Positions 220 to 27,340 of a DNA stretch of 64,000 nucleotides are shown one piece after another. The stretch lies in contig JANPZZ010000017.1 in the NCBI GenBank assembly GCA_024707305.1, forward strand, positions 62,001 to 126,000, written 5' to 3'. The notes below the pieces were generated by a model. The model saw only the letters and a list, made by a program, of their open reading frames with translations. It was not told where the DNA came from and ran no database searches. Within the stretch, counting starts at the first letter, position 1. Every line of letters begins with the position of its first letter. The translations under genes and the position numbers were made by a program. This DNA is from Chitinophagaceae bacterium (GTDB taxonomy: Bacteria; Bacteroidota; Bacteroidia; Chitinophagales; Chitinophagaceae).

Positions 220-1077
220 TTATTGATCAAGCAATCCTTTCCGGATTTCTGAAATCATCGTCATATTTTCCTGTACAGTATTGTTGAAGTATGCTGTCAT
301 AATCGCACCAATGTCACTATAATCTACATTGGCGCTATTACGTTCCAAAATTCCATCTATAAGCTGAAACAAGGCATCATCTTTAATAACGATTTTTCGC
401 ATTTCTCTTCCCATTACCCTGGCTGCCACATGCAACAGGTCAGTGTTGTCACCTGTAAAAAGATCGAAATGATTTTCCCAGATTTCGTTATCCTGCATGG
501 AAAAATAGTGATGGAGAATGTCGCTGATATCAAGGATATCATCTCTGCGCTTTTCCGGCCGGTCGTTCCAAGCCAGTAGTTTGAGAATAACAATTCCTGG
601 TAGTGTACAAAATTTGAACTGGTGTTTTCCTTCCAGGTTCATTTCTGGCAGGCCGGCGAAATAGATTTCAGCAAAGCCTGGTACATGGACGGTGGTATAA
701 CCTGTTCCTTCCACAGTAACTTTGCGGTCTTCATCTTCAATAGCTCCGAAGGGAAGCAGATCTACCTGCATCCTTTCTTTATAGATCAGCACGAATGCAT
801 TTTCTGCTGATGGCTGAAAGCCTTTTTCTTTGACGAGATAGGCTTTTAATTGTTCATAGACACCTTTATCATTTATGAGGACGGCAAAGTCAACATCTTT
901 GGTGGCCCTCCCGGGTCTTTTTAAATGAATGCCGCTTATCCACACATCGCGGGCAGTAGCACCGACGAGATAGTAATCTAACCCGAATTTGGCGAACCCT
1001 TCTTCCAGATCTGTCAGCAGTAAAGAGATCAACGGGTTTTGCCTGATTTGATCATAATTTATTTTGTAAGTACTCAT
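220..1077 (-). CDS. abiEii: AbiEii-type nucleotidyltransferase toxin
   Basis: This 285-residue protein resembles the AbiEii/AbiGii nucleotidyltransferases, the toxins of type IV-style toxin-antitoxin and abortive-infection systems. The nucleotidyltransferase signature is visible: a GATARD loop at residues 39-44 followed by the acidic pair in KDVDFAV (D61 and D63). A further acidic position lies in QVDLLPFG near residue 106. The later LPGIVILKLLAWNDR stretch matches the lysine-containing helix usual in this family. The ATG overlaps the stop of the upstream AbiEi gene in an ATGA, which implies translational coupling of antitoxin and toxin. The family is thought to modify tRNA or nucleotides; the substrate of this copy is unknown. 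The length is normal and the frame is unbroken. Confidence 0.75.
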   Translation of the reverse strand: MSTYKINYDQIRQNPLISLLLTDLEEGFAKFGLDYYLVGATARDVWISGIHLKRPGRATKDVDFAVLINDKGVYEQLKAYLVKEKGFQPSAENAFVLIYKERMQVDLLPFGAIEDEDRKVTVEGTGYTTVHVPGFAEIYFAGLPEMNLEGKHQFKFCTLPGIVILKLLAWNDRPEKRRDDILDISDILHHYFSMQDNEIWENHFDLFTGDNTDLLHVAARVMGREMRKIVIKDDALFQLIDGILERNSANVDYSDIGAIMTAYFNNTVQENMTMISEIRKGLLDQ

Positions 1078-2047: not shown

Positions 2048-2060
2048 TTGTTCATATTTT

Positions 2061-2103
2061 AATAATGTACACGAAACGTGAACACGTAAATAATGTGAAC
2101 AAA
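2061..2103 (-). promoter_or_regulatory. Putative AbiEi operator repeats
   Basis: The octamer AATAATGT occurs at 2061-2068 and 2089-2096 (plus strand), each followed by a similar AC-rich heptamer and spaced 28 bp apart. They sit between the predicted -7 element and the abiEi start codon. AbiEi antitoxins are known to autoregulate by binding repeats in their promoter region, so these are reasonable operator candidates. No binding is shown by the sequence itself. Confidence 0.4.
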
Positions 2104-2129
2104 TATACTATTTTTCTGGGCTTATCCAA
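2100..2129 (-). promoter_or_regulatory. Bacteroidota-type promoter of the abiE operon
   Basis: On the minus strand, TTG (2127-2129) is followed by exactly 19 nt and then TATATTTG (2100-2107). This matches the Bacteroidota housekeeping promoter TTG-N19-TAnnTTTG without a mismatch. Predicted transcription would start near 2093, about 45 nt before the abiEi ATG at 2047. The match is exact and well placed, so I consider it well supported. Confidence 0.7.
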
Positions 2130-2155
2130 TATTAAGCTGCCCCACGATACGACTT

Positions 2156-2640
2156 TTATTTTATCCCCGACCAGTTGTTCTTTTCTGACTCGATTTCATA
2201 AAATCTTTGTTTTTCCACATCGTCGATTTTCCTCAATAGGATATAATGTGACCAGCTTAAAGCAAAGCTTTGGGAAAACGCAGACAGTGTTTGCGAAATA
2301 TGGTCACTGGCTTTAGCTGTTTTGGTGCTTCTTGATTCGGTAGATTTCGCAGACGGTGTTTGCGAAATTCGATTGCTATAGATTAGGTAGAATTTCCTGA
2401 AGTATTCAAGGTTGCGATGTGAGAACCCTTTTCCAAAATCCCTGGTCAAATCGACACTTAACTGCTTAAGGGTTTGGTCTGCATATTCGGCTCTTGATTT
2501 TCCGCTCTGTTCATGCTCCACTATCATTCTTCCTATTTCATAATAGGTCAAAATGATAGTGGTGTTTACCTTTCCGTACTATTTGAGCCTTGGATTCTTC
2601 AATTATCAATTTGATTGAATCGTAAAGGCTGCTGCTTTTC
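2156..2640 (-). pseudogene. DUF1016 (YhcG-type) nuclease, decayed N-terminal fragment
   Basis: The readable part (2156-2551) contains the DUF1016 N-terminal domain: YYEIGRMIVEHEQSGKSRAEY, then DFGKGFSHRNLEYFRKFY, then LSWSHYILLRKIDD. The preceding N-terminal residues (SSLYDSIKLIIEESKAQIV) are present upstream but in other frames, so at least two shifts separate them from the domain. The C-terminal PD-(D/E)XK nuclease half is missing: the frame stops right after NNWSGIK, where the family continues for about 200 residues. Loss of half the gene cannot be explained by a sequencing indel, so this is a true remnant. Related genes are common in defence islands and restriction loci. Confidence 0.7.
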
Positions 2641-2665
2641 TTTTAGATTTTTCATATAGCTGGAT

Positions 2666-3912
2666 TTATGATGCAGAATTCAACCTGTCTTTGAGTTTTC
2701 GCATATCCTCACCGACTTTTATATCGAGTACCCGCGCATAGTGTTGGGTCGTAGATATCTTTTTATGCCCTAACATTTTGCTTACAGATTCTATAGGAAC
2801 CCCATTACCTAATGTAACGGTAGTTCCGAATGTGTGTCGGGCCGTATGGGTGGTCAGCGTTTTTGAAATATCGCAGATGTCAGCAATTTCCTTTAAGTAT
2901 GCATTGTATTTTTGGTTGCTTAACACCGGAAGTACTTTATTTGCATTTATACAGGCAGGATCATCTTTATATTTCTTGATAATACCCAATGAAACTGGTA
3001 ACAGGGGGATCCTTGACTTTATTTTTGTCTTTAGTCTGTCAGTGAATATCCAAAGCTGGTCATCAACTCCAACGGATATTTCTGTCCTTTTTAGTTTTTC
3101 GACATCTGCATAAGCCAAACCGGTGAAGCAGCAGAAAACATATACGTCTCTTACCCGGCTTAGTCTTTCATTCCGGATTTCTTTATCGGCGATTGTCTGA
3201 ATTTCCTCTTTGGTAAGAAATATAGGCTCCACATCTTCTTTTTTCATTTCAAATCGGGCAAAGGGGTCATGATCCAACCATCGATTATCCTTACAATAAA
3301 GAATGATCATCTTCAGGATGCTGATATATTTTAGGGAAGTATTATGGCAGCATTTGCGGATGGTCTTAAGCCATAGTTCAAACTGATTTACAAAATCAAA
3401 ATTTAATTGCCGGATATGAATATCATCTGACTTGTATTTCCACCGGATGAATTCCTGTGCGAAACGCTTAGTGCGGTCGTATTTTGTCCACGTGGGTTTT
3501 GAGTAGTCAATGCCAATTAACATTTTTCATCCGCATTGTAATCTTCAAATATTTTGATGATCATTTTTCCGCGCTGGTCTGCGCCCATCAATACGTCTTT
3601 GATCGCGGTAGCTGTTACCAGTTGATGATCTTCAACCAACTTTCGCTTGGCTTCAAAGACCCTGGCCTGATAAGTATCCAGGTAGCTGTTTAACGCCTTT
3701 ACATTCTCTTTTGTACCCGATGCTCTGCCAGCAGACGGGTTCCATCGTGCAGGATCACAGCTACGCTTAACTGATAGCTCTTTAGGAGTGCCATCTACGG
3801 TTATTCGCAGGTAGATAGGGACATCACCTTTCACGTAATTCCTGGGCTTTTTCAAATAGAAAAGCAAACCGAAACTTTTGTCTAGCATCTCAATAGATTT
3901 ACTGGTTAACAA
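2666..3912 (-). CDS. Tyrosine recombinase / integrase (frameshifted in this sequence)
   Basis: This is a site-specific integrase of the Bacteroidota element type, about 415 residues when the frame is restored. The N-terminal part (3517-3912) carries the arm-binding domain (FYLKKPRNYVKGDVPIYLRI). The rest (2666-3523) carries the SAM-like core-binding domain and the catalytic domain. Catalytic landmarks are HTARHTFG (H-x-x-R), MLGHKKISTTQHYARV (His and the nucleophile Tyr), and FTGLAYADV, where this lineage lacks the usual first Arg, as IntDOT-type enzymes do. The break is at an A5 run near 3529-3533; a sixth A gives DEKMLIGIDYSKPTW. The gene lies about 230 bp from the 3' end of a tRNA-Asp gene and inside a pair of 19-bp direct repeats, the usual setting for an integrated element. 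Confidence 0.85.
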
Positions 3913-3984
3913 ATTTCGACTTGCATTTACTAAGAAACAAGATGTTCAGAGATTGAACAACTTGATAACCAAAGGCTTGACGCC

Positions 3985-4040
3985 ATTCCAGTGAGTAAAT
4001 TTTTTGTGAATCGATGACTCACTGAATCACTCACTGGAAT
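3985..4040. repeat. 12-bp inverted repeat overlapping the right direct repeat
   Basis: ATTCCAGTGAGT at 3985-3996 is the exact reverse complement of ACTCACTGGAAT at 4029-4040. The right arm overlaps the 19-bp direct repeat copy at 4017-4035. Close by, GAGTG motifs recur (4042-4065). The cluster lies directly upstream of the integrase gene, which fits a recombinase or excisionase binding region; that role is inference. Confidence 0.5.
4017..4035 (+). repeat. 19-bp direct repeat, right copy (candidate attachment site)
   Basis: This is identical to the copy at 29-47. It sits between the integrase start (3912) and the tRNA-Asp 3' end (4139). If the pair are attachment sites, the bounded element carries integrase, abiE and a DUF1016 remnant. 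No copy of the tRNA 3' end was found elsewhere in the window, so classical tRNA-site integration is not demonstrated. Confidence 0.5.
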
Positions 4041-4080
4041 TTGGAGTGAAAAGGAGTGATTTGGATAAGTACAAAAACAA

Positions 4081-4114
4081 AAAAGCCTGCAATATCAACG
4101 ATTTGCAGGCTTTT
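4081..4114 (-). terminator. Rho-independent terminator after tRNA-Asp
   Basis: AAAAGCCTGCAA (4081-4092) pairs perfectly with TTGCAGGCTTTT (4103-4114) around a 10-nt loop. The stem ends in A and T runs on both strands, so it could stop transcription from either side. It lies 25 bp beyond the 3' end of the tRNA gene on the minus strand, which is the expected place. Confidence 0.75.
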
Positions 4115-4138
4115 AGTTTGTTTTGAGATTGACTTAAG

Positions 4139-4212
4139 CGGACCGGACGGGACTCGAACCCGCGACCTCCGCCGTGACAGGGCGGCATTCTAACCAACTG
4201 AACTACCGATCC
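4139..4212 (-). tRNA. tRNA-Asp (anticodon GTC)
   Basis: The minus strand folds as a 74-nt cloverleaf without an encoded CCA. The acceptor stem pairs GGATCGG with CCGGTCC (one T-G wobble) and leaves a discriminator G. The D arm contains AGTTCAGTTGGTTAGA and the T arm contains GGTTCGAGTCCC. The anticodon loop is CTGTCAC, with GTC complementary to plus-strand 4176-4178. GTC together with a G discriminator identifies aspartate. A terminator follows at 4081-4114. Confidence 0.95.
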
Positions 4213-4595: not shown

Positions 4596-4763
4596 ATGAA
4601 GCTAATAGACAACAAGTCAACTCGCTTATTTGATGAATTGAAAACTTTACTAACTGAAAATTCAGAGGTATTGATTTGTGCCACCTATGTCAGCATTAAT
4701 TCATTTTTCGAACTAAGCTTCCAGCTTAAGAAAGTAGCTAGTATTGAGAGCTTCGAAATTTGA
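4596..4763 (+). pseudogene. N-terminal fragment of a PLD-like/helicase protein
   Basis: From ATG 4596 a 55-residue frame begins MKLIDNKSTRLFDELKTLL and continues SEVLICATYVSINSFFELS. That pattern resembles the N-terminus of phospholipase-D-like helicases found in phage-defence loci (basic start, then a strand-helix unit). It stops at a TGA at 4761-4763, far short of a full protein. The next sequence encodes the C-terminus of an unrelated protein, so this looks like the left side of a deletion junction. The family assignment is tentative. Confidence 0.4.
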
Positions 4764-5269
4764 GAGACCTGGGTATCCTGCTTCAAAAAGGAAAAGGCCG
4801 GGCTACCTATTATATTCCCGACCTGCTATTTCATAATCCTGAAATTGGGGCCCAATCTGACAACCCTGTCTCGTTATCTGACGACCTCTTGGTCAAACCT
4901 GACGACCTCCTGACCAAACCTGACCACCCTGCGGTCAAACCTGACCACCCCCTGAGCAAATCTGACCAGTTGGAACCGTTGCCTGAAGAACTAAAAGGTA
5001 TAATTGCCGACCTTGGGAAAAAAGTGCTGGACAGGGAAAAAATGAACCAGGCAATATTGCGGCTTTGTAACTGGCGGGCGGTATCTCTCAAGGACTTATC
5101 AGTTTATCTCAATAGGAACGAAAAATACCTTTTGGGATTTGTAACAGCTTTACGGCAAAGCGGCCAAATCACTTATACGATTCCCGAAATGCCCAATCAC
5201 CCTGACCAGGCGTATCAGTCTGTAAATTTCGACAATAAATCCAGCGAAAAACATGAAGATCAAATTTGA
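4760..5269 (+). pseudogene. C-terminal remnant of an AAA_4/AlbA-type ATP-binding regulator with a heptapeptide-repeat linker
   Basis: The frame opens without a proper start (only a TTG at the junction) with GILLQKGKGRATYYI. This resembles the winged-helix end of Schlafen/AlbA_2-type ATP-binding proteins. A linker of seven-residue repeats follows at about residues 33-68 (SDNPVSL, SDDLLVK, PDDLLTK, PDHPAVK, PDHPLSK). A second small helical domain (about 80-160) contains a typical MNQAILRLCNWRAVSLKDL segment. The ATPase part is absent. The frame ends by overlapping the next gene by 17 nt, as in an operon. Together with the preceding fragment it marks a deletion that joined two genes. Confidence 0.45.
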
Positions 5270-6483
5270 AAGTGGACTATCTTATCAGCAGGAAGCTATT
5301 AATGCCATAGTGGATATTTTCCAGGGCCAGGAAGTCTGTACGTCCAATTTCACTGTTTTTTCTCCGGAATACCTGGCTAAGCAAAAGACACTTGATTTTA
5401 ACCAGAAAGGCTACGCCAACAAGCTGCAACTTACCGAAGCCCAAATTTTGGAGAACACGCAGAAAATTCAGCTTCGCAACGGCATGAAACCTTCCCTGCC
5501 GAATGAAGTGGACATCAGGCATCTTGATTTTTCTGTTGAAATGGAAACCGGCACAGGCAAAACCTATGTGTACCTGCGAACTATTATGGAAATGAACCGA
5601 CAATATGGATTCACAAAATTCATTATAGTTGTTCCGTCCATACCGATCAAGGAAGGTGTATATAAAAGTTTACAGATAACAGAAAGCCACTTTAAGGAGC
5701 ACTACAATAACATTCCCTACAAGTATTTTATTTATGATAGCTCTAATCTGTCTGATGTTAGAGATTTCGCTGTCAACGATCAGTTGCAGATCATGGTGAT
5801 CAATATTGACGCCTTCCGCAAAAAGCTTTGAAAACGAGAAGGACGAAACGAAAAGTCAGAACATCATCCACCGGTATAATGATAAATTAGGCTACAAGCC
5901 TTTGCAACTAATACAGGACACCAGGCCAATAGTAATCATTGATGAACCGCAAACAACTTTAAGTACAGAACTCGCCCAAAAGAGTGTAAAGAATTTAAAT
6001 CCTCTCGTCATGCTTCGGTATTCCGCAACACATAAAGAAAAGCTGAACATGATGTACAAGCTGGACGCATTGGATGCGTATAATCGCCAACTGGTAAAAC
6101 AAATATAAGTGGCCTCAGTAAAAGTAGATGGCGCCGCTATAGATGGAGCTTATATCAAATTGGTAAGTGTAAAGAACAAACCAAACATTCGGGCAAAAGT
6201 GGATTTAGATATTCTTCAAAATGGCGAAAGAAAGCGCAAGCCCAAAGAACTAAAAAAGAACGATGATTTACTGGAGATCACAAAGCTGCAACAATATGAA
6301 GGTTTTATTGTGAATGACATTTATACGCAACCAGGCAACGAGTATATTGAATTTATCAACGGAACATTTGAGTTATTGAGCCAGGCTAAAAAAGCTGAAA
6401 AAAACACCGCAGTGTCTCCCAATTTTAAACTCTTTTTGTACAGGATTAAGAGGGCGATTCAGAAACTCGAAATAAAATTCTGA
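5253..6483 (+). pseudogene. Type III restriction enzyme Res subunit, N-terminal remnant
   Basis: The first 190 residues carry a DEAD-like ATPase with Walker A METGTGKTYVYLRT (near residue 98), preceded by the family's FESGLSYQQEAI start. After a frame change at an A5 run (about 5820) come the DEPQ box (IVIIDEPQTTL) and the SATH box (MLRYSATHKEKLN), typical of type III Res helicases. A TAA then stands at 6106-6108, where related proteins read LVKQIEV, so it looks like a GAA-to-TAA nonsense change. The frame continues to 6483 and stops. The second helicase lobe and the nuclease domain are missing (about 410 of roughly 1000 residues), and no Mod methylase is present. Truncation and nonsense change indicate a real pseudogene. 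Confidence 0.75.
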
Positions 6484-6595
6484 TTCATGGTAAATTTTTC
6501 GAGATGTAGAGATTCCTGAATACATCGGGAATCCTGCTCAATCTTTCTCAAAAATTATCTCCGGTAAAACAATTTTGATCTCTTTTTCCATCCCC

Positions 6596-9500
6596 TCATT
6601 CTTCCAGAATACAATAAAATTGACCCGGCCTTTCGTCATTCGGAAGCCCAGCTGTCTTCTGGTTCATGAGTTTTTCGCGGAACCTTTGGGAAAATCTAAT
6701 AATTCGATTGTTTTTGGAATTATAAAGCCCATCTTCACGGGTAACGAGGGAATCGCCGCTGTTCAGTTTAATTAAATGTTCCTGAACATAAGCAAAGTGC
6801 CCAAGGATCACGTCGGAATGTGTCAGATGCATTGCTATCTCGCGAGGCGGGAGATAGGTATTACGATCAACAAAACGTTCAATATCCTCAGCACCGATTT
6901 CGTCGAGCATATTTGTGTTGATATGAACGGTTAAATTAGTCTTCGCCCGTGTCATCGCTACATATAACTGCCTTTTGGCTTCATCGGAGTCAATATTAAA
7001 ATTGTCGAGCACAATATATACATTTTCAAATTCCCGGCCCTTGGCCTTATGAATGGTTGATACAAAAATCGTTTCTCCATCTTCCTGAAAAAATCCTCCA
7101 ACTTCGATTCTTTAATAAACGTTTCAAGATCTGATTTATATTTTTTTCTTCGGATTTGTAGACTGGAAATCTCTCACTATGCTCACGCAAAGATCAAAGT
7201 TTGAACTGTTACGATATCTGTTATAGAGTTTACGTTTGGCATTATCCCATATCTCTTCGCTGATGATGTACACATCATTAGATAAATTGAGTTGATCCAG
7301 AAAATAACGTACTTCCACAAGATTATACAGATTAAATCCGTCGTTTGTCTGAATCAACCTGGCTCTTACTTTATTTTTTAGGAGCAGTCCTGTTACCTGC
7401 GATGCTTCTTCGTTTGTTTTCGTAAGCACACAAGTTGTTCCAGATAGTTCAGCTTTCAGGATGTCTTGAACTAAAGGAGTTACCAGGTTATTACTTGCAT
7501 AACGAATAATTTTGATCGTCCCGTTTTCGGAGTTGATAGGAACAATGGGTATCTCCTTTAATCGGTTCGGAATCTTCTGTACAAAATTGTTAGTTAATTC
7601 AACCAGGTTCGCTTTACTCCTGTAATTCTCAACCAACTCAAATTTGACTGCGCCATGCGTTTCAATCAGGTCAATCATGTATTTTGAATGGGATCCCCTG
7701 AACTCGTAAATATTTTGATCGTCATCGCCAACCGCAATCACTCGCATATCCTCGTTGTGGTCTATCAACGCCCTGATTAGTTCAAATTCATCCGCTGACA
7801 TGTCCTGCGCCTCATCTATAACAAGTACTGTCTTTGTTATTCGACTTGCTTCTACGTCCTTACTTTTAATTTTTTCAACAGTTTTTTTCAGAATCAACTC
7901 CGACTTTTCGAGGCTTCCGACTTTTCCCAACAGGTCGAAACAATACGAGTGAAAGGTTTTTATCTCGATAAAATTGGCAGCACCTCCAATAAGTTTGACC
8001 AGGCGTTGCTTAAACTCCGTTGCTGCGGCTCTGGAAAATGTAACCATGAGTAATTGCTCATGCTTCACGTCTTCCATTAGCAGGAGCGAGGCAAGTTTGT
8101 GCACCAGTATTCTCGTTTTGCCACTTCCGGGTCCCGCAGCCACTACAATGTATTTCGATTCACTATCATTAATGACTTTCAATTGGGTGGGCGATAAGTT
8201 GCCAAAAAGCTGCCTGAATTTTCCCGGCGTGATTTTAAGTTTAAGCTCATCACCTTTGCTGCCCGGGAAATATTTCCTCAAGAAGAAGCTATAGTTTAGA
8301 TGAAAGTAATCGTCTACAAATTGCAGCGCATCCTTGTAATCGCTAATCATTTTTTTCGCATACTCACCCACGATATGAATCTGTTGCACCTTTTGCTCGT
8401 AAAAAGTGTTGAGTTTCTTGTAGTCGTCCTTTGTGTATTTCTTGTAATTGTCAAGTTCAATCCTTTCAATTGAGAGACGATTATACGAAACCAAAAATCC
8501 TCCCTCAATTTCAATCGAATTAATCCTGGAAAGGTAAAATAAGGCGTCTTCAATATCCCCAATTGAAACGTTCAACCCGAAAAAGTTTTTGCCGGGATTC
8601 ATATTCGGATTTCAAACCGTGAACAGAAAATTCAACCAAAACTTCGTCTTGTCCGTCGCTATCATCCATTTTTTTATTGGTTTCGCTTTTAGAAAAGAGG
8701 CTTTCGACTATGAACTTTGCTAATTCGTGTCGCTTTCTCATTTTTTCTTCGAGCTCTTCTTTCGTGTATAGGTTTGCAATTGCAATGTGGTTCTTTGAAT
8801 TTTCTAAGTGCTGCCTTTTTACCCAACTCTTAATTGCCCAAATGTTGATTAAGGTCTTAATCTTGTTTGTATTTACATCCGTACAGCCATTCGACTCTGC
8901 GACTTCATTTAGTTCTTTAATGTGGTATATTTTCTCGTCGTTTTCTAATTCATTTAGCAGGATGGCTTCTAGTTTTCTATAAGAGTCAACGATTTGTAAC
9001 GACTTGTTTTTATTATCGCCTCTTTTAATAAACGCCGTCAGGTCTTTTGCATCTGCAAGGATCTTTTCCTCTCGAAGGAGATTTACAATTTCTATTACCT
9101 GCTCTTTGGGAATACCTAAATGGTCGCTTATATAATCAATTCTTGACTCTGCAACTTCGTCATTTAAGTGTTTGATGCTTTTGCTGGAAAATAGCTTTTT
9201 TATTATCCTGATAGCGTTTACTTTTTGCTGCTCCTCAAATTTCGTTGACGCTTTTATTTTATCGATAGCTTCCTGTGCATTTCTTGATAATATGCTATTC
9301 GCGAATACGCGGGGCATATTTTGTCCTCGCCTTAGGTACCCTGCATCTTCCAGTGCCGCTATCGCTGTGGTAACCCTGGTCTCGATTTCCCTTACGTTTT
9401 CGTCCCAACCAGCTTTTCTGGCAATTTCTAACGCGGAGCTTGAGACAGACGATCTAAATTTTGTTATGTCTTTTATCGCCCGCCATATCTGCTGTATCTC

Positions 9501-11363
9501 TTTTATGGAAAGTTTGCTTTGATTCAGTAGGATGAAATGTTTACCGAGATCCTCTTCGTTAAATAGAACAAAGCAATCAGCTCTTGGAATTAATTTTTCA
9601 TCTCTCCCGGCGCGGCCAGCTTCCTGAATATAGTTTTCTAAAGAATCTGATATTTCGTAATGGATCACCATTCCCACGTCTTTTTTATCGACTCCCATTC
9701 CGAATGCAGAAGTTGCAACCATTATCTGCACATCACCCGCAATAAATGCGTTCTGGTTTTCGATTTTTTCTTTTGAATTCATTTTGCCGTGGTAGGGTCT
9801 TGCATCATAACCGTCTTTGTTGAGTTTTTCCGCCAGATCGAAAGCTTTCCTGGTTCTTGAGACATACACAATGGTTGGGCAGTTCTTTTCTTCAATAAGA
9901 TTTCGTAGTGTCTGGTACTTATCTTCTTCCTCGCCTTTCTCAAAAACTTTGTAATTTAAATTGGTTCTCGATGCATTGGCTGAATATAACTCCAGGTCTA
10001 AAGAAAGCTTTTCCTTAAAATAGCCTCGAATATCTTCAATTACGTTTTGTTTAGCTGTTGCTGTGAAACAAGAAACGGGTATCGCTTCTTCAAGGTTTTT
10101 ATTTACCTGAATTTGTTTTATGAAATCACCAATATATAGATAATCGACTCTGAAATCCTGGCCCCATGATGAAAAGCAATGAGCCTCATCGATTACGAAG
10201 CGAGCAACTTTTCTTCCTAAAATCAACCGTTCGATTGTTTTTGAACGCAAAGATTCTGGTGAAATATAGAGAATAGAAGCAGACCCGTCTTCAACTCTTT
10301 CAAACGCCTTTGCTCTTTCAATTGGATCGAGCAATCCATTTATCGTTACGGCATCCGTGATACCAATACTTTCAAGGTTGTCAACCTGGTCTTTCATTAA
10401 TGACTGCAAAGGCGAGATTACGACTGTAAGTGCCCTTGTATTTTCGCCACACATCAACGCTGGTAACTGGAAAGTGATTGACTTTCCTCCTCCTGTAGGA
10501 AATACTGCAAGAATTGATTTGTCGTCAACGGCTGCTTTCACAGCTTTTTCCTGCAATGGCTCACCACCATAAGTTCTGTATGAATCGTAGCCGAACCATT
10601 TCTTCAGTCCTTTATAAATATCGAGTGCTCGATTACAATATCCACATCCGGTTATGCAAGGTTTGTTTCGTAATCGAAACATGAGCTGCTCAACTTTCGG
10701 ATAGTTTTTTAAAACCCATGGTGGAGTAATTGATTGGTTTTTCCTGTGTTCGATGAAAGAGTTTAGAAGCGAAAGACAGTAAGCCAGTTCAATAGGGTGT
10801 TCTTTAATGATTTTAGCTATGTCTACATTATCGCAGATTTCATTGTCGAAATGACTTCGAATTAATTCTTCCAGGTTTAATTGTTCCGTTGAATACCGCA
10901 AAAAGCGGAAAAACGATTGGAATTCTATTTTGTCATTTAACAAAAGATAATAAATCTGCTGAAGATGTGTGCTAATTCCTTTGAAAGTTGCAACCTCGTC
11001 ATAAAACAAATCCTTTGCTTTAATTGAGTCGTTTAATGGATTGTTTGTTTCTTCAGTTTGTAGCTTATCATCTTTTAGTAAGGAGTGGTAGGGTTTGGTA
11101 GGGAATAGCAGCGGCGAGAGGTATAGAGTGTCGATTACGCTCGCATTACTTATTCCTGCACCATCTAGAGCCTGACCAATATATTTGAGATCATGATTCA
11201 GGATGTTGTGCCCGCAAATGAACTGGGAGCCCTTGAGGAATTGCACGAACTCGGCTACGGATGGCTTGTGGAAGGAACTGCCATCGTTTTTGATGCCTCC
11301 AATGTCTAATACCCTTCGACTATTGGGCTCGATTTCCGTATCAATAAATACTATTGAACTCAT
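6596..11363 (-). CDS. Exonuclease-RecQ-UvrD fusion helicase, about 1,590 aa (frameshifted in this sequence)
   Basis: One long gene encodes three machines in series. Residues 1-170 resemble a DnaQ/DEDD 3'-5' exonuclease: FIDTE (D8, E10), GHNILNHDLKYI (51-62) and NPLNDSIKAKDLF (108-120). A cysteine cluster CITGCGYC follows at 236-243. RecQ motifs are complete: Walker A PTGGGKS (289-295), IDEAHCFSSWGQDFR (391-405) and the YIQEAGRAGRD box. From about 940 a UvrD/Rep-type helicase follows: VAAGPGSGKTRIL, VLVIDEAQDMSADEF, VGDDDQNIYEFRGSH, VENYRS, then STIHKAKGREFENV and LYVAMTRAK. Three frame breaks, near 8575, 7137 and 7085, each sit in A or T runs and each is repaired by one base. The gene is intact at both ends and stands alone. 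A role in DNA repair or phage defence is inferred from domains and location. Confidence 0.75.
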
Positions 11364-17612: not shown

Positions 17613-17690
17613 ATAAAAATGCCCCGCAGATAGGCGAGGCGCTAAATGTTTTCACAACGGAATAATCCTTATTGTGAATTGCTTTCGAGG
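17613..17690 (-). ncRNA. tracrRNA of the type II-C CRISPR system
   Basis: The minus strand carries an anti-repeat core: GAAAGCAATTCACAA (17672-17686) is complementary over 15 nt to the 5' part of the CRISPR repeat as transcribed from the minus strand. It is followed by TAAGG and a small GGA/TCC nexus hairpin, as in known II-C tracrRNAs. Next come TTGTGAAAACATTTA and a terminator hairpin GCCTCGC-CTATCT-GCGGGGC with a T run (about 17613-17641). The 5' end is uncertain; pairing weakens upstream of 17687. The gene diverges from cas9, whose ATG is at 17785. Function: it pairs with crRNA repeats and is bound by Cas9. No convincing promoter was found. Confidence 0.85.
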
Positions 17691-17784
17691 TAAATATAGA
17701 AAGTTTTCTGGAATTCCAAATACGGCAAACCGTAAAATTAGTCCGAAGAGTAATTTTATCTTAGAACGATCAATTCTGAACATC

Positions 17785-20700
17785 ATGAAAAAAACAATTT
17801 TGGGCCTTGACCTGGGAACGAACAGCATTGGATGGGCGTTAATAGATAAGGAAGAGAATAAAATTCTTGGAATGGGGAGCCGGATAATTCCTATGACGCA
17901 GGATGTAATGGATAAGTTTGGAACTGGAGCGCCAACAGAAACAGGGACAGCTGAACGAACCAGGTTCAGAAGTGTTCGAAGATTGCGTGAGCGTTTTCTA
18001 TTACGGAGAGAGCGCCTGCACCGAGTTCTAAATATTTTAAACTTTCTGCCAAAGCACTATGCAGAAGAAATTGACTTTGATAGGCGTTTAGGTAAATTCA
18101 AAGTTGAAACAGAACCGAAACTTGTTTATGAAAATGGAGAATTCATCTTCAAAGAGTCTTTCCAGGCGATGTTGGGTGACTTCAAACAACATCAGCCGCA
18201 AATTTTAATTAACAAGAAAGGCGAACCGGCACTTATTCCTTATGACTGGACGATTTACTATCTCCGTAAAAAGGCATTGACTCAAAAAATAGAGAAGGAA
18301 GAGCTTGCGTGGATATTATTGAACTTTAACCAGAAACGCGGTTATTATCAATTGCGCGGTGAGGAGGAAGAGGAGAATTCAAATAAGCTCGTGGAATTTT
18401 ATTCTTTGAAAATAGTTGACGTGCTGGCAGACGAACCGCAAAGGGGCAAACCGGAGATTTGGTATTCGTTGATTCTCGAAAACGGGTGGGTTTATAGGCG
18501 GGCAAGCAAAACCCCATTATTTGACTGGAAAGATAAAACAAGGGATTTTATTGTTACTACCGATCTCAATGAGGACGGTACTATTAAGAAAGATAAAGAA
18601 GGAAAGGAAAAACGAAGTTTCCGGGCACCTTCCGAAACCGATTGGACACTAATCAAAAAGAAAACGGAAAAAGATATTGAACAGTCACGCAAAACTGTAG
18701 GCACATATATCTATGACACGCTTTTGGAAAGTCCAAAACAGAAAATAAAGGGCAAATTAGTTCGTACAATTGAACGAAAATTTTACAGGCAGGAGCTAAA
18801 ACAGATTCTGGACAAACAGATTGAACTACAGCCAGAATTGTTCACTAACGATTTACTTAATGACTGTATCAGGGAATTGTACAGTAATAACGAGGTACAT
18901 CAAAAGGCATTGTTGAGCAAAGATTTCTTACATCTTTTCTTAAATGATATTATCTTTTATCAACGACCACTCCGTAGCCAGAAGTCGTCTATCGGTAATT
19001 GTTCTTTGGAATTCCATAAATATAAAGACAAGGATGGCATAGAGCATACACAATTTTTGAAGGCGATACCTAAATCCAATCCTTACTATCAGGAGTTTAG
19101 AATCTGGCAATGGATGTTCAATCTTTCCATTTATAGGAAGGAGAACGACGAAAATGTGACTTCTGATTTTTTGAACAGTACTGAAGATTACGAAAAGCTT
19201 TTTTATTTTTTGAATACAAGGAAAGATATTGAACAGAAGCCGTTGGTAAAGTGGCTGGTGGAAGAAAGGGAAAAAAGAAAAAACCGGGATAAAAGGGAAG
19301 GTATTGAATGCTGAAATTGAAAAATATCGTTGGAATTATGTAGAAGATAAAAAATATCCCTGTAATGAAACCAAAACGATGATAGCCTCTCGGCTGGAAA
19401 AGGTAGAGAATCTACCTGATAGCTTTTTAACGAGAGAGATTGAGCAACGATTGTGGCACATTATCTATTCAATAAATGATAAAGCGGAGTTTGAAAAGGC
19501 ACTCAAAACCTTCGCTCAAAAACACTCTATTGACGACTACTCGTTTGTAGAAGCCTTTAGGAAATTTCCTCCATTTAAAAGTGAGTATGGTTCATTCTCT
19601 GAAAAAGCAATAAAAAAGCTATTGCCCTTGATGAGGCTTGGGAGATATTGGAGTTGGGAAAATATTGATGAATCCACGAGGAGTCGGATTCAAAAAATAA
19701 TCACGGGCGAGTACGATGAAAACATTAAAGACCGTGTGCGTGAAATGGCAATAAAACTTTTGAATGAAACAAATTTTCAAGGGTTACAAGTTTGGCTGGC
19801 TCAATATGTCGTTTACGGCAGGCATTCTGAAGCGGCAATTGCTGGAAAATGGAATAGTATAGATGACCTTGAGAAATACTTAAGTGAGTTTAAGCAACAC
19901 TCTTTGCGTAACCCGATCGTTGAGCAGATTATAACCGAGACTCTTCGGGTTGTAAAAGACATTTGGAAACAATATGGAAGTGGCGGAAAGGATTTTTTTA
20001 ATGAAATTCATATTGAATTGGGCAGAGAAATGAAGCAGACCAGGGAGGAAAGAGAAAGGGATACTAAAAGGGTCACTGAAAACGAAAATACTAACCATCG
20101 TATAAAAGCATTGTTGGCTGAGCTGTTGAATGACGGGGAGGTGGAAAATGTTCGTCCTTACTCGCCTATGCAGCAGGAAATTTTGAAAATTTACGAAGAT
20201 GGTGTACTTAATTCTGATATCGAAATAGATGATGATATCGTTAAGATAAGCAAGATGGCACAGCCGTCATCCAGTGAATTAAAACGATATAAGCTGTGGC
20301 TGGAACAGAAATATAGATCCCCCTACACCGGTCAGGTTATTCCATTAAACAAGCTCTTCACGCCAGAATATGAAATTGAACACATTATTCCGCAGAGCCG
20401 TTTTTTTGATGACAGTTTCAGTAATAAAGTCATTTGCGAAGCAGCTGTAAATAAATTGAAAGATAATTATATAGGGCTTGGTTTTATTAAGCAATTTCAT
20501 GGAATGATCGTGGACTGTGGTCGGGGTAAACAAGTTAAAATTTTCGAAGTGAATGAATATGAAGAGTTTGTAAAAAGACACTATGCAAATAACCGCGGCA
20601 AGCGAACTAAGTTACTGATGGAAGAAGTTCCAGAAAAAATGATAGAGCGGCAAATGAATGATACTCGATACATCAGCAAGTTTATTTCGGGGCTACTGTC

Positions 20701-22100
20701 AAATATTGTACGAGCAGAAAGCAACGACGATGGCGTAAATTCAAAGAATGTCATTCCTGCTAATGGGAGAATTACTTCACAACTCAAACAAGATTGGGGC
20801 TTGAATGATGTATGGAACGATTTAATATTACCGCGGTTTGAAAGAATGAATGTTTTGACAAAAACCACAAACTACACCACATGGAATGAGAAATATCAAA
20901 AGTATTTACCATCCGTACCTATGACAGAATCAAAAAACTTTCAAAAAAAGAGAATTGATCATCGGCATCACGCATTGGACGCTCTTGTGATTGCTTGTGC
21001 AACCAGAGATCATGTAAACTTGTTAAACAATCAGTCTGCTAAGTCTGATACGAAACGTTACGATTTACAGAGCAAATTGCGACTTAAAGAAAAATGGGTA
21101 GATAGCGAAGGAAGAGAAAGGGATAGGTTTAAGGAATTCAGAAAGCCATGGGAATCGTTTACACAAGATGCTAAAAAAAGCATTGGAAAATATTGTAGTA
21201 AGCTTCAAGCAAAACCTACGCGTAATCAATAAGGCTACGAACCACTACGAAAAGTATGTGGATAGAAACGGTGGAAGAGTGAAGGAGTTGGTGGTACAAA
21301 GCGGAACGAATTGGGCAATCAGGAAACCAATGCACAAAGACACTATTTCCGGTAAAGTGGAATTACCGTGGTACAAAACACCGAAGGGAAAAATTCTCAC
21401 TGCTACGAGGAAAAGCCTGAACACATCGTTCGACTTCAAAGCTATCGGAAATATTACCGATACAGGTATTCAGAAGATATTGAAAAACTATCTTGAAGCA
21501 AAAGGAGCTAATCCCGAGGTGGCATTTTCAGCAGAAGGTATTGATGATTTGAATAAAAATATTCGCTTTTATAATGATGGTAAGCCTCACCAACCCATTC
21601 AAAAAGTTAGAGTATTTAAGTTGGGGTCAAAATTCCAGGTGGGTCAAGCGGGCAACAAAAAGCATAAGTATGTCGAAGCTGCCAAAGGCACAAATTTATT
21701 CTTTGCCGTTTATGAAAATGAAAATGGTAAAAGAAGTTATGAAAGTATTCCTTTGAACGAAGTAATAGAGAGACAAAAACAAGGTTTGCCACCGGTTGAT
21801 TTTTTTGGCAGAAAGGGATTTTATCTCTGTCCAAATGATTTGGTTTATATACCGACGGTCGATGAACTACAAAATACGAGTGGAATAGACTTTCGAGACC
21901 TTTCAAAAGAAAAGAAGAATAATATTTATAAAGTTGTGAGTTTTACAGGGAATAGGCTTTATTGTATTCCTTACTCAGTAGCAACTACAATAGTTAACAA
22001 AATAGAGTTTACACAACTAAATAAAATTGAGTTTATTAAGGAAAAGGAGGTCTTAATAAAATTAGAGACAGATAGGTTGGGAAATATTTCTAAAGCATAA
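17785..22100 (+). CDS. cas9: Cas9 endonuclease, type II-C, about 1,438 aa (frameshifted in this sequence)
   Basis: The RNA-guided DNA endonuclease of the locus. The start at 17785 (MKKTILGLDLGTNSIGWAL) puts RuvC-I with D9 at the N-terminus. An Arg-rich bridge helix follows (RFRSVRRLRERFLLRRERL). RuvC-II is IHIELGREM (about residue 742). HNH is EIEHIIPQSRFFDDSFSNK (His about 866). RuvC-III is HHALDALVIACATRD (about 1058). A PAM-interacting C-terminus follows. Size matches the large Bacteroidota II-C enzymes. Two frame breaks occur. Near 19290-19303, restoring one A in each of two runs gives DKKGKVLNAEIEKYRWNY. At an A7 run near 21174-21180, one A fewer gives DAKKALENIVVSFKQNL. Because all catalytic residues survive and the breaks are in A runs, a functional gene with sequencing indels is most likely. 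cas1 follows after 3 bp. Confidence 0.93.
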
Positions 22101-22103
22101 GCA

Positions 22104-23039
22104 ATGATCAAGCGTACTCTCTACTTCGGGAATCCAGCCTACTTAAAACTGAGCAACGAGCAAATGGTAGTGGAGAGTAGTCTGCCTATTGCTGTACGAA
22201 ACGAAGAAGGTGAAGAGATAGATAGAATTCAAAAATCAATCCCGGTAGAAGACGCCGGGATTGTAATTTTAGATCATCAACAGATAACGATCACACAGGC
22301 ACTACTTGCCAGGCTTTTAGCCAACAATACAGCCGTTATTACCTGTGATCAAACACATCATCCTGCTGGTCTGCTACTGCCGCTGGACGGAAGCAGTCTG
22401 CAAAGTCTTAAGTTTCGCTTCCAGATTGAAGCATCGCAACCTTTGAAAAAACAACTCTGGCAACAAACGGTTGTGGCCAAAATCGGGAACCAGGCGGGGA
22501 TGTTGCGATTTCGAAGGGAAGAAAATAAGCTGCTCTTGAAATTGACGGAAAACGTCAAAAGCGGGGATAGCGATAATCATGAAGCGCAGGCAGCGGTTTA
22601 TTACTGGAAAAAATTGTTCCCTGCAGAAATTGGATTTCGTCGTGAACGATACGGCCCGCCGCCAAACAACTTATTGAATTATGGTTACGCGATATTAAGG
22701 GCCCTTACCGCGAGAAGCCTTACTATTAGCGGATTGCTACCCACATTGGGTATTCATCATCGTAGCCAGTATAATGCGTATTGCCTGGCAGACGATATTA
22801 TGGAGCCCTATAGGCCCTATGTGGACTATGTGGTATTTCAATTGGTGCGTGACAATGGTCAGTTCCTGGAAATAACACCTTCAATGAAGAAAGCATTATT
22901 GGAAATCCCGGCGATGGATGTAAAAATGGAAGGTAAAAAAAGTCCGCTAATGAATGCGATGCAGCGGACCACAGCTAGTCTTGCCAAATGTTTTGAAGGC
23001 ACGGCTCGTAAAATGCTTTATCCTGAATTTCATTTATAA
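22104..23039 (+). CDS. cas1: CRISPR-associated endonuclease Cas1 (type II)
   Basis: A 311-residue integrase that, with Cas2, inserts new spacers into the array. The conserved active-site residues are visible: E160 (NHEAQAAVYYWKKLF), H218/H219 (LGIHHRSQYNAYCLADD) and E234 (DIMEPYRPYVDY). Size and the LYFGNPAYLKL start are typical of type II Cas1. It lies 3 bp after cas9 and 3 bp before cas2, so the three form one operon. The frame is intact. Confidence 0.96.
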   Translation: MIKRTLYFGNPAYLKLSNEQMVVESSLPIAVRNEEGEEIDRIQKSIPVEDAGIVILDHQQITITQALLARLLANNTAVITCDQTHHPAGLLLPLDGSSLQSLKFRFQIEASQPLKKQLWQQTVVAKIGNQAGMLRFRREENKLLLKLTENVKSGDSDNHEAQAAVYYWKKLFPAEIGFRRERYGPPPNNLLNYGYAILRALTARSLTISGLLPTLGIHHRSQYNAYCLADDIMEPYRPYVDYVVFQLVRDNGQFLEITPSMKKALLEIPAMDVKMEGKKSPLMNAMQRTTASLAKCFEGTARKMLYPEFHL

Positions 23040-23378
<339 letters not shown>

Positions 23379-23396
23379 ACAGCCATAAAATAAAAC

Positions 23397-23438
23397 AGGA
23401 TCTGAAAACCGTCGAAAAAATCCGACTTTTCAGATCCT
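23397..23438. terminator. Hairpin between cas2 and the CRISPR array
   Basis: AGGATCTGAAAA (23397-23408) pairs perfectly with TTTTCAGATCCT (23427-23438), and GTCG/CGAC (411-414 and 423-426 of the same block) extends the stem inward. It is the main structure in the 105-bp gap between cas2 and the first repeat. It could end the cas mRNA and, on the other strand, the pre-crRNA. No long T run follows on the plus strand, so efficiency is uncertain. Confidence 0.5.
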
Positions 23439-23483
23439 GAATCGATTGGAAATCGTTAAAATTCAATAGCTTATCCTGTTCGT

Positions 23484-26400
23484 GTTGTAAAAGAACTAAG
23501 CTACAGAATAATTTGAAAGCAATTCACAACGGATGCGCTCAATTTATTAACGCTAAAATTGTTGTAAAAGAACTAAGCTACAGAATAATTTGAAAGCAAT
23601 TCACAACACTGTTTTCTGTATTCTTAAATCTGTATTGTTGTAAAAGAACTAAGCTACAGAATAATTTGAAAGCAATTCACAACTAACGCTGTGGGGTTGA
23701 TTCAGTTCATGCCGTTGTAAAAGAACTAAGCTACAGAATAATTTGAAAGCAATTCACAACAATCGGCAGGGGCTATAAGGTTTGATTGATGTTGTAAAAG
23801 AACTAAGCTACAGAATAATTTGAAAGCAATTCACAACCGTAGAAGAACTCGATACGTGGAGCCTCACGTTGTAAAAGAACTAAGCTACAGAATAATTTGA
23901 AAGCAATTCACAACACAGGTACATTAGATGCTATACCGGCATGGTTGTAAAAGAACTAAGCTACAGAATAATTTGAAAGCAATTCACAACGGTAATCCAT
24001 TTGCTCACCAGGTACATACTGTTGTAAAAGAACTAAGCTACAGAATAATTTGAAAGCAATTCACAACGTGTTCGGGGTACAGGTCAGCGTCTTTTGGTTG
24101 TAAAAGAACTAAGCTACAGAATAATTTGAAAGCAATTCACAACCCGCCCCCGGAATATCGGCCGAAGGAGCGGGTTGTAAAAGAACTAAGCTACAGAATA
24201 ATTTGAAAGCAATTCACAACTCGGGGGTCATAAGTCGATAGAATTAAAGAGGTTGTAAAAGAACTAAGCTACAGAATAATTTGAAAGCAATTCACAACCC
24301 TTAGGGCAGATCCCGTAATAACCACCCAGTTGTAAAAGAACTAAGCTACAGAATAATTTGAAAGCAATTCACAACGATTGGCTGCCGGCAGTGCAGTGAA
24401 ATACTGTTGTAAAAGAACTAAGCTACAGAATAATTTGAAAGCAATTCACAACTTCCAACTCCGTTGGCATTTGATGAAGTGGTTGTAAAAGAACTAAGCT
24501 ACAGAATAATTTGAAAGCAATTCACAACATTAGACTGGATAATGTGAACGACATACCAGTTGTAAAAGAACTAAGCTACAGAATAATTTGAAAGCAATTC
24601 ACAACGGGCTGGAAAGTCAGTTGGTGTTGGTTGTGTTGTAAAAGAACTAAGCTACAGAATAATTTGAAAGCAATTCACAACGACATCGACAATAATTGCC
24701 CACATCTTTACGTTGTAAAAGAACTAAGCTACAGAATAATTTGAAAGCAATTCACAACAGGAGGAGCACGGTTACCCAGTTCTTTGTGTTGTAAAAGAAC
24801 TAAGCTACAGAATAATTTGAAAGCAATTCACAACATGCCGCAGTTAGTACGACGCTCGGTAACCGTTGTAAAAGAACTAAGCTACAGAATAATTTGAAAG
24901 CAATTCACAACTTCGTATTGATGTCTCTTACAGCATCTTCGGTTGTAAAAGAACTAAGCTACAGAATAATTTGAAAGCAATTCACAACACTATAGAGTGT
25001 GGAAGATTTTTCGAGACGTTGTAAAAGAACTAAGCTACAGAATAATTTGAAAGCAATTCACAACAGCTTGTTAATACGCTAGCTGCAACCCTGCGTTGTA
25101 AAAGAACTAAGCTACAGAATAATTTGAAAGCAATTCACAACCATTGGCACAACTTCCTACCTTGACAGGCGTTGTAAAAGAACTAAGCTACAGAATAATT
25201 TGAAAGCAATTCACAACTAGGTACGAGTGCTTCCGTCAATTGCCGCGTTGTAAAAGAACTAAGCTACAGAATAATTTGAAAGCAATTCACAACTGTGGCT
25301 ATTGTGCTTGTATTGGCTGTATAGTTGTAAAAGAACTAAGCTACAGAATAATTTGAAAGCAATTCACAACGCAATGCCGGGGTAAGTACGACTGCGCAGA
25401 GTTGTAAAAGAACTAAGCTACAGAATAATTTGAAAGCAATTCACAACCGATGTCGTGATCACGAGCAACGATCCAGCGTTGTAAAAGAACTAAGCTACAG
25501 AATAATTTGAAAGCAATTCACAACCAGGTAGCTGATCACCTTTTCAGGTGCTTCGTTGTAAAAGAACTAAGCTACAGAATAATTTGAAAGCAATTCACAA
25601 CCGTTAGATGGTACAACGGTGAAGTTGGGGGGTGTAAAAGAACTAAGCTACAGAATAATTTGAAAGCAATTCACAACGTGTCATGGGTGTGGGGGTTTAG
25701 GGTTTTGGTTGTAAAAGAACTAAGCTACAGAATAATTTGAAAGCAATTCACAACTACATGGGTGGTTTTGTTGTAGAACTCCAAGTTGTAAAAGAACTAA
25801 GCTACAGAATAATTTGAAAGCAATTCACAACCGTTCCCGTGTGTGTCAAATTCTAACTGCAGTTGTAAAAGAACTAAGCTACAGAATAATTTGAAAGCAA
25901 TTCACAACCGTAGCCGCGGTCTTTACACAATGTTTTTGGTTGTAAAAGAACTAAGCTACAGAATAATTTGAAAGCAATTCACAACATGTCTCGGCGTGTG
26001 TTCGTCCCCTGCCAGTTGTAAAAGAACTAAGCTACAGAATAATTTGAAAGCAATTCACAACTCATTCGCCTGGCGGCATGATAACATTGAAGTTGTAAAA
26101 GAACTAAGCTACAGAATAATTTGAAAGCAATTCACAACGGGGTGGAGAGCGTGCAGACGCCATCATCTGTTGTAAAAGAACTAAGCTACAGAATAATTTG
26201 AAAGCAATTCACAACACATGCTTCACGTTGAATTCGCTATGCCAAGTTGTAAAAGAACTAAGCTACAGAATAATTTGAAAGCAATTCACAACGATAGCTT
26301 CAGGTACGACAAACAACGCAAGTTGTAAAAGAACTAAGCTACAGAATAATTTGAAAGCAATTCACAACGTTGCTGCTATTGCACAGGCAACGCGTTCAGT

Positions 26401-27292
26401 TGTAAAAGAACTAAGCTACAGAATAATTTGAAAGCAATTCACAACTTCTATCCAATGTCTGAATCCTGGCCCTGGCGTTGTAAAAGAACTAAGCTACAGA
26501 ATAATTTGAAAGCAATTCACAACCAGTTAGGGTGGGTGAACTGTCGGTAGAGTGTTGTAAAAGAACTAAGCTACAGAATAATTTGAAAGCAATTCACAAC
26601 TGGGGCGAAGTTGCGGAAATTATGTCTAAGTTGTAAAAGAACTAAGCTACAGAATAATTTGAAAGCAATTCACAACTCCGGGTTAACGGCCTTTGTCGCC
26701 TGAAAGGTTGTAAAAGAACTAAGCTACAGAATAATTTGAAAGCAATTCACAACTTCCTACTCCGTTGGCATTTGATGAGGTTTGTTGTAAAAGAACTAAG
26801 CTACAGAATAATTTGAAAGCAATTCACAACACCGGGCGGGGTGTCAATTGGGACAGACAAGTTGTAAAAGAACTAAGCTACAGAATAATTTGAAAGCAAT
26901 TCACAACTCCTCTTACGATGGCATTGTAGAGTATTTGGTTGTAAAAGAACTAAGCTACAGAATAATTTGAAAGCAATTCACAACGGATTGATTATAACTC
27001 CCTTCGTAAGATGGGTTGTAAAAGAACTATGCTACAGAATAATTTGAAAGCAATTCACAACCGCAACACATAATGCAGCCAGGGAAATGGAGTTGTAAAA
27101 GAACTAAGCTACAGAATAATTTGAAAGCAATTCACAACTGTGATGCTTCCACCTGCAGCGAACGTCGCGTTGCGAAAGAACTAAGCTACAGAATAATTTG
27201 AAAGCAATTCACAACCCTTCGTCTCCGATGTCGTGTAAGGCTTCAGTTGTAAAAGATCTAAGCTACAGAATAATTTGAAAGCAATTCACAAT
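23484..27292 (-). CRISPR. Type II-C CRISPR array, 50 repeats of 47 bp and 49 spacers
   Basis: I count 50 repeats of 47 bp, on the plus strand starting GTTGTAAAAGAACTAAGC and ending TGAAAGCAATTCACAAC, separated by 29-31 bp spacers (period 76-78 bp). Nearly all repeats are identical. Variants start at 25631 (second base G), 27015 (A to T at position 15), 27169 (TA to CG at positions 5-6) and 27246 (position 12 and the last base). Three of these four are among the last four repeats, so the far end looks oldest and the cas2 side youngest. Pairing with the tracrRNA requires crRNA made from the minus strand, with repeats starting GTTGTGAATTGCTTTC, hence the strand given. Two spacers (24453-24481 and 26754-26783) are near-duplicates. 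Confidence 0.98.
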
Positions 27293-27340
27293 TTACATCT
27301 TAGGTTTAGTGCATACAGTGTAAAGTTTGCAATAAAGAGC

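Follow-up and report, generated by a model that had tools for sequence, protein, structure and literature searches.

Fusion gene

The stretch analyzed here, referred to below as the window, comprises 64,000 nucleotides of a Chitinophagaceae genome (contig JANPZZ010000017.1, positions 62,001 to 126,000). On its minus strand lies a gene in which an exonuclease-like N-terminus, a cysteine cluster, a RecQ helicase core, a middle region and a UvrD helicase core follow one another in that order. Its parts are as follows.

6541..11363, minus strand: whole fusion gene, about 1,607 codons with four frame changes; extent from tblastn with intact relatives, the end of the gene also from the sequence
10764..11363, minus strand: N-terminal DEDD exonuclease fold, from motifs and predicted fold
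10635..10658, minus strand: three-cysteine cluster C-x3-C-x2-C, between the exonuclease and the RecQ core
9513..10607, minus strand: RecQ-family superfamily 2 (SF2) helicase core, residues 253-617 (TIGR00614, PF00270, PF00271)
8195..9512, minus strand: middle region of mixed helices and hairpins, fold unassigned; break near 8,580
6920..8194, minus strand: UvrD/Rep-family superfamily 1A (SF1A) helicase core (PF00580, PF13361); breaks near 7,141 and 7,088
6541..6919, minus strand: C-terminal tail; frame break between about 6,630 and 6,702

Most of the gene is spanned by open reading frames (ORFs) of 937, 488 and 138 amino acids (aa). When two intact relatives are aligned to the window by tblastn, the first frame runs from 11,363 to about 8,577, the second from about 8,587 to 6,680 or 6,644, and the third from 6,630 or 6,702 to 6,544, so that one frame change falls near 8,580 and another between 6,630 and 6,702. 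Two more, near 7,141 and 7,088, are seen from the ORFs and the sequence, each at a run of six to seven A or T. Outside these breaks the matched stretches of the gene are open. The first-pass annotation, which was made from the sequence alone, ended the gene at 6,596; tblastn with the intact relatives and the sequence itself show that coding continues to about 6,541. That annotation described one reading unit of about 1,590 residues. The window copy does not have a single frame, although its relatives do, so that the inference was sound; the length found here is about 1,607 codons.

The breaks in the window copy are likely to be insertion or deletion errors of the assembly, because other genes of the same genome are split in the same manner. 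The essential rpoB occupies two frames, its middle piece containing a stop (G000:C21:31909-35694), the housekeeping recQ is split into frames of 546 and 190 aa (G000:C16:172577-174382), and the integrase and cas9 genes of the window are each divided between frames; rpoC is whole. A decaying pseudogene with true frameshifts, which could be combined with any of the functions considered below, would explain four frame changes within 4.8 kb beside an incomplete type III Res gene. It is nevertheless unlikely, in view of these split genes, of the open stretches between the breaks and of the A or T runs at two of the four breaks.

Domain organization

The N-terminus carries the exonuclease motifs D-x-E (D8, E10), GHN-x4-D (D58) and N-[ND]-P-x2-D (N107, D112), and the four acidic residues D8, E10, D58 and D112 are invariant in 36 sequences. 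In the predicted model (mean predicted local distance difference test score, pLDDT, 75.6) this part folds as a DEDD exonuclease, and the fold and the four acidic residues together place it with the DEDD (DnaQ-fold) enzymes. The best VIA rows include Staphylococcus aureus DinG (Z 11.1, root-mean-square deviation 3.3, 149 residues aligned), a DnaQ domain (Z 10.7) and the Cap18 3'-5' exonuclease (Z 10.2). From the names of the entries, we take the top rows to be DEDD-type exonucleases and polymerases with such domains; a family that does not appear in the VIA list carries no information. Foldseek gives a single match at E<=0.001, again DinG (6.5e-05), and RNase H-like integrases from E of about 0.04. 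Over the first 200 residues Pfam gives no exonuclease model, either in the first intact member, for which the list is complete, or in 14 members, among the matches listed (25 of 31 families).

The histidine that characterizes DEDDh exonucleases, five residues before the last aspartate, is missing from nearly all members: among 101 full-length proteins this position is Asn in 95, Ser in two and His in one, and it is unmatched in three. The protein with the histidine is L105, an alphaproteobacterial member from a Hyphomonadaceae metagenome-assembled genome. In the cysteine cluster that follows, C236, C240 and C243 are invariant in the 36 sequences, and C-x3/4-C-x2-C is present in 99 of the 101 full-length members.

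The RecQ core passes the cut-off of TIGR00614 (271.4 against 219.8 bits) and fails that of TIGR01389, the equivalog of the full RecQ protein (311.2 against 640.2 bits). RecQ motifs I, II, III and VI, sought like the other helicase motifs as plain text patterns anywhere in the 101 full-length proteins, occur in 98-101 of them, as expected of a RecQ SF2 core. Neither for the window pieces nor for the first intact member does the full Pfam list contain a RecQ-Ct Zn or HRDC model, and the only HRDC match of the genome sits on a different contig. What had been annotated as a complete RecQ helicase is thus the core only.

The middle region was modeled as 485 residues of a Shinella relative, giving helices and short hairpins with a mean pLDDT of 75.1 and a predicted template modeling score of 0.53. 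Its low-scoring Foldseek rows include winged-helix proteins, which serve as a lead only.

The UvrD/Rep core is present as the first-pass annotation had it. In the window, the 488-aa ORF matches PF00580 (121.6 bits) and PF13361 (35.8 bits), both over the cut-off, and the 138-aa ORF matches PF13361 below it (21.8 bits). Of 14 intact members, all match the UvrD_N and UvrD_C models, and the UvrD motif patterns occur in 95-101 of 101, in keeping with an SF1A helicase. The annotated order of exonuclease-like N-terminus, cysteine cluster, RecQ and UvrD is therefore borne out by models, motifs and predicted fold.

Intact relatives and distribution

The fusion is a real gene family, which is intact elsewhere and is carried under a plain RecQ label. 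A long homologue, 62-75% identical, is found in nine of 98 related genomes besides that of the window; eight of the nine are uninterrupted, with frames of 1,601-1,626 aa, and the ninth has one stop. Accurate sequence dividing the protein into separate genes, which the first-pass annotation named as the outcome that would overturn it, was not encountered; these eight relatives have one uninterrupted frame each. In 112 loci with genes assigned by a simple ORF criterion, the main gene has at least 1,599 residues in 101 and fewer than 1,590 aa in the other 11, some of which are truncated by a stop or by the edge of a contig. With an N-terminal profile, carriers are detected in 15 of 395 genomes examined in the phylum, the present one included, and in 12 of 171 genera; all except the window copy are in frames of 1,601-1,731 aa.

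The distribution is patchy. Two genomes of the same genus have RecQ-core matches only, the fusion gene not being found in them, and in the order to which the carrier G482 belongs, none of 149 other genomes has it. A scan of bacterial contigs, with alpha- and gammaproteobacterial members as queries, yielded at least 539 relatives among at least 598 candidate stretches, the best 80 being nearly all alphaproteobacterial. The same order in a single open frame occurs in Bacteroidota, Pseudomonadota, Campylobacterota and one cyanobacterium. Plasmid copies are known from Bacteroidota, Campylobacterota, Cyanobacteriota and Pseudomonadota, and the plasmid records annotate a single gene, as in Bacteroides and Aliarcobacter. 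Where records are annotated, the protein is called a RecQ helicase.

Two simple accounts of the family's origin were rejected. Replacement of the housekeeping RecQ does not agree with the finding that all ten carriers (nine relatives and the present genome) hold another RecQ-core match. An origin in phages does not agree with the phage collection, where the N-terminal 937 aa are in no case covered to 80%; in the 15 of 51 records listed, the matches cover residues 237-700. IMG/VR gave seven matches, three of them long and four short and weak, and two of the matched contigs, which are putatively viral, hold a full-length gene of 1,633 and 1,702 aa.

Neighboring genes of the relatives

The fusion gene mostly stands alone, in agreement with the first-pass annotation. 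In the 101 full-length loci a close same-strand gene is absent downstream in 90, present in six and not assessable in five, where no gene was called; upstream the corresponding numbers are 79, 21 and one. No neighbor is conserved overall, and the commonest family is found in 13 of 112 loci. In one scanned member this family is an HNH_2 nuclease, and BLAST with that protein finds it in 12 of the 112 loci, always directly upstream and on the same strand as the fusion gene. The distance is 14-16 nucleotides (nt) in ten loci (L079, L082, L083, L087-L092 and L095) of a Rhodobacteraceae subgroup, in which the two genes likely form an operon, and 156 nt in L131 and L133. Other families recur in 10 or 11 loci and are, we presume from their sequences, ABC transporter- and LysR regulator-like. 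By Pfam, the make-up PLD-ResIII-DUF3427 is seen in three scanned neighbors (L104 and L136 in alphaproteobacteria, L164 in Bacteroidota), and the corresponding BLAST cluster adds L130 and L139 to give five loci.

The surroundings are rich in defense genes in two phyla, as judged by PADLOC matches at E<=1e-15, which are counted in families and compared with random stretches. In the phylum of the window, 146 neighbors of 20 loci match 141 families and 120 control proteins match 12; in alphaproteobacteria, 125 neighbors of 25 loci match 66 families and 121 control proteins from the same contigs match 11. Neighbors shorter than 110 aa or longer than 1,400 aa were dropped. In the phylum of the window one 1,160-aa neighbor (TonB-receptor-like) was left out of 147, and 120 of 159 control proteins were kept; they derive from 15 stretches (16 were fetched), located on 14 of the 20 contigs of the cases. 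In alphaproteobacteria 150 case and 145 control proteins were reduced to the numbers given, and the 25 loci were picked from the best 80 of the scan for full flanks and varied genera.

Among the case families listed (the first 25 for each group), those from the phylum of the window include type I methylase and specificity subunits, type IV restriction endonuclease, type II methylase, JetA, HEC-06, PDC-S05 and the RecQ-like DpdF and PsyrT models. Those from alphaproteobacteria include LmuA, LmuB, LmuC, Drt4, Drt6, DarG and MzaA, with type IV restriction endonuclease in two. The survey of homologues that the first-pass annotation proposed thus finds the gene encoded among defense genes, which is context and not proof, and its homologues are not confined to core repair contexts.

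Gene tables are available, in incomplete form, for nine annotated plasmid loci, of which three have restriction-modification (R-M), CRISPR or helicase-PLD genes nearby. A type I R-M system adjoins the fusion gene on the Allochromatium plasmid, and Cas6 is near it on the Thiothrix plasmid. On the Scytonema plasmid (L048 462-8428), genes for a helicase, a hypothetical protein and a phospholipase D lie upstream, an order that we take to be DISARM-like.

Surroundings in the window

The following features accompany the fusion gene in the window.

220..1077, minus strand: AbiEii-like nucleotidyltransferase (PF08843, 27.2 bits against a cut-off of 22.5, a weak match)
2669-3912, minus strand: tyrosine integrase, in two frames
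4138-4212, minus strand: tRNA-Asp
4760-5269, plus strand: ORF without a match, convergent to the fusion gene
5253-6483, plus strand: incomplete, multiply broken type III Res (REase_III, 2.3e-67 and 3.8e-08), convergent to the fusion gene
17674..27293, plus strand: CRISPR-Cas locus: cas9 (split between two frames), cas1 and, from about 23,482, a repeat array

The AbiE, type III R-M remnant and CRISPR named by the first-pass annotation are all present. The AbiEii-like gene is a weak match, however, with no PADLOC match at E<=1e-4, and the CRISPR locus, whose array has about 50 repeats of 47 nt at a spacing of 76-78 nt, starts 6 kb from the fusion gene. The Res gene matches profile positions 1-186 and 273-359 of 989 only. 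Unlike the genes probably split by indels it looks truly truncated, since nothing matches after position 359 and the fusion gene ends only some 55 bases away.

The integrase and the tRNA-Asp, which the first-pass annotation did not mention, adjoin the locus and, together with the AbiEii-like gene, suggest an integrative element (220-4212). No second 3' end of the tRNA-Asp is found in the window with up to three mismatches, nor an exact one in 194 loci, and comparison with a same-genus genome defined no empty site, just 1.6 kb being common within 40 kb.

Comparison with known systems

The first-pass annotation saw in the protein the logic of RecBCD and AddAB, with which it shares helicase and nuclease activities, predicted here, in one DNA-end machine. 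This likeness was rejected on domain content and motor families. No PD-(D/E)XK model appears when all Pfam matches of the first intact member are considered, nor among those listed (25 of 31 families) for 14 members; the RecQ and UvrD families are both 3'-5', unlike the RecB/RecD pair; and the fusion is accessory, not core.

In the Werner protein, WRN, an exonuclease precedes a RecQ helicase, as the exonuclease fold precedes the RecQ core here. The fusion differs from WRN and the RecQ family in having no RecQ Zn or HRDC match, an extra UvrD motor, and copies on plasmids and islands. S. aureus DinG, which the N-terminus matches best in Foldseek and which fills two of its top four VIA rows, likewise has an exonuclease and a helicase in one chain, although its helicase is XPD-like and it is without a UvrD part.

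Similar in logic may be Hna (helicase-nuclease abortive infection) of Sinorhizobium meliloti. According to PMC13381803, Hna is a single protein and a proven defense system, found in about 2% of genomes, with SF2 motifs and a C-terminal PD-(D/E)XK nuclease. It is a 3'-5' exonuclease on single-stranded DNA (ssDNA), kept as an auto-inhibited dimer by ATP and stimulated by phage single-stranded-DNA-binding protein (SSB). Like Hna, the fusion places a helicase motor and a DNA exonuclease, here a predicted fold, in one protein; unlike it, the fusion carries its DEDD fold at the N-terminus and has two motors, each from a different superfamily, and no C-terminal PD-(D/E)XK nuclease appears in the full Pfam list of the first member. 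Gabija, according to PMC10952713, pairs a UvrD-type motor with a nuclease in defense, in the form of GajB as a separate protein with GajA, whereas the UvrD part here is fused to RecQ and an exonuclease. GajA is not found among ten window ORFs scanned, no search having been aimed at it; the neighbor matches listed contain no GajA-like partner, and no partner recurs in most loci.

Possible function

From its domains and setting, the fusion protein is best read as an accessory, usually single-gene helicase-exonuclease that would defend against phage or other invading DNA, a reading to which we give an even chance. A defense effector is favored over a core repair enzyme because the gene is patchy in distribution, isolated, and surrounded by defense genes in two phyla. 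These same observations agree with the anti-phage machine that was first proposed, apart from its comparison to RecBCD and AddAB. The logic of such a defense could resemble that of Hna.

We infer the activities, their polarity, the target and the defensive role, and on that basis the following scheme can be drawn. The RecQ and UvrD motors would load on ssDNA 3' ends, gaps or forks, of the kind that arise when foreign DNA replicates or recombines. The junction might be held by the middle region together with the cysteine cluster, and unwinding would deliver a 3' end to the predicted N-terminal DEDD fold for trimming or clamping, with the outcome that replication of the foreign DNA would fail. 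As a guess, the trigger could be the structure of the foreign DNA or a phage SSB, as reported for Hna.

Several observations weigh against a defensive role. With Asn in place of the usual catalytic histidine in 95 of 101 members, the nuclease may be inactive, and Foldseek finds no match at E<=0.001 for the middle region. The window protein itself is covered only in part by PADLOC models (among the matches listed, 25 of 31 and 25 of 40 families), and some case matches (DpdF, PsyrT, Orf5 and methylases) belong to broad models or are due to a second RecQ. What is counted is families, and a single protein can match several; the comparison is with random stretches and not with other genes of islands. 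The controls also have matches of their own, which are read as broad families: mad3, mad8, RtcR-type, RTasPolA, IetA, AriA and PDC-M06B in the phylum of the window, and, in alphaproteobacteria, others that include mad3 in four, mad8, ShosA, PsyrA and PDC-M16A. Of the nine plasmid loci with incomplete gene tables, four have toxin-antitoxin genes only and two have neither these nor defense genes. Some copies adjoin genes for plasmid partition, replication or SSB: the Aliarcobacter copy is next to ParA/ParB and replication genes, and SSB and ParA genes are near that of the Bacteroides record.

Since RecQ and UvrD are families of repair enzymes, the protein might instead be an accessory enzyme of repair or recombination, Werner-like with an extra UvrD motor, that acts on stalled forks or ends and travels as a passenger of islands and plasmids. 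The records label it RecQ, and the combination of exonuclease and RecQ is reminiscent of WRN, the RecQ core of which also appears among the matches; both point in this direction. Such an enzyme would not be expected to be missing from two genomes of the same genus or to lie amid defense genes in two phyla; it has no conserved repair neighbor, the commonest family reaching 13 of 112 loci, and each carrier already has another RecQ-core match. We regard this role as rather doubtful. The plasmid copies beside partition, replication and SSB genes, and the integrase and tRNA next to the window copy, could alternatively point to a factor for maintenance or establishment of plasmids or integrative elements, which would aid the replication, transfer or protection of their own DNA. 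This is very unlikely, as no plasmid maintenance gene is among the recurring neighbor families of known make-up and no neighbor exceeds the frequency just given.

A further possibility, compatible with defense as well as with the other roles, is that the exonuclease part is a dead clamp or a sensor of 3' ends, the double translocase stripping or remodeling DNA without degrading it. The replacement of the histidine speaks for this, and the invariance of the four metal-binding acidic residues, which would be odd in a dead site, speaks against it; we hold the idea tentatively, somewhat short of an even chance. With similar reserve, the defense reading can be put in a more specific form, namely that the family may be a widespread, undescribed anti-invader system, a single protein that combines a His-to-Asn DEDD fold, as clamp or altered nuclease, with two driving 3'-5' motors from different superfamilies and is paired with an HNH nuclease in one subgroup.

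No description of a RecQ-UvrD fusion was found in the literature searched, the coverage of which was incomplete, and as far as seen the architecture is new. If the protein is a defense effector, it would add to the known ones a design in which a single chain carries two motors from different superfamilies, and it raises the question of what role a DEDD site plays without its histidine. The architecture is present at more than 500 genome stretches, and it passes as plain RecQ in the annotated records.

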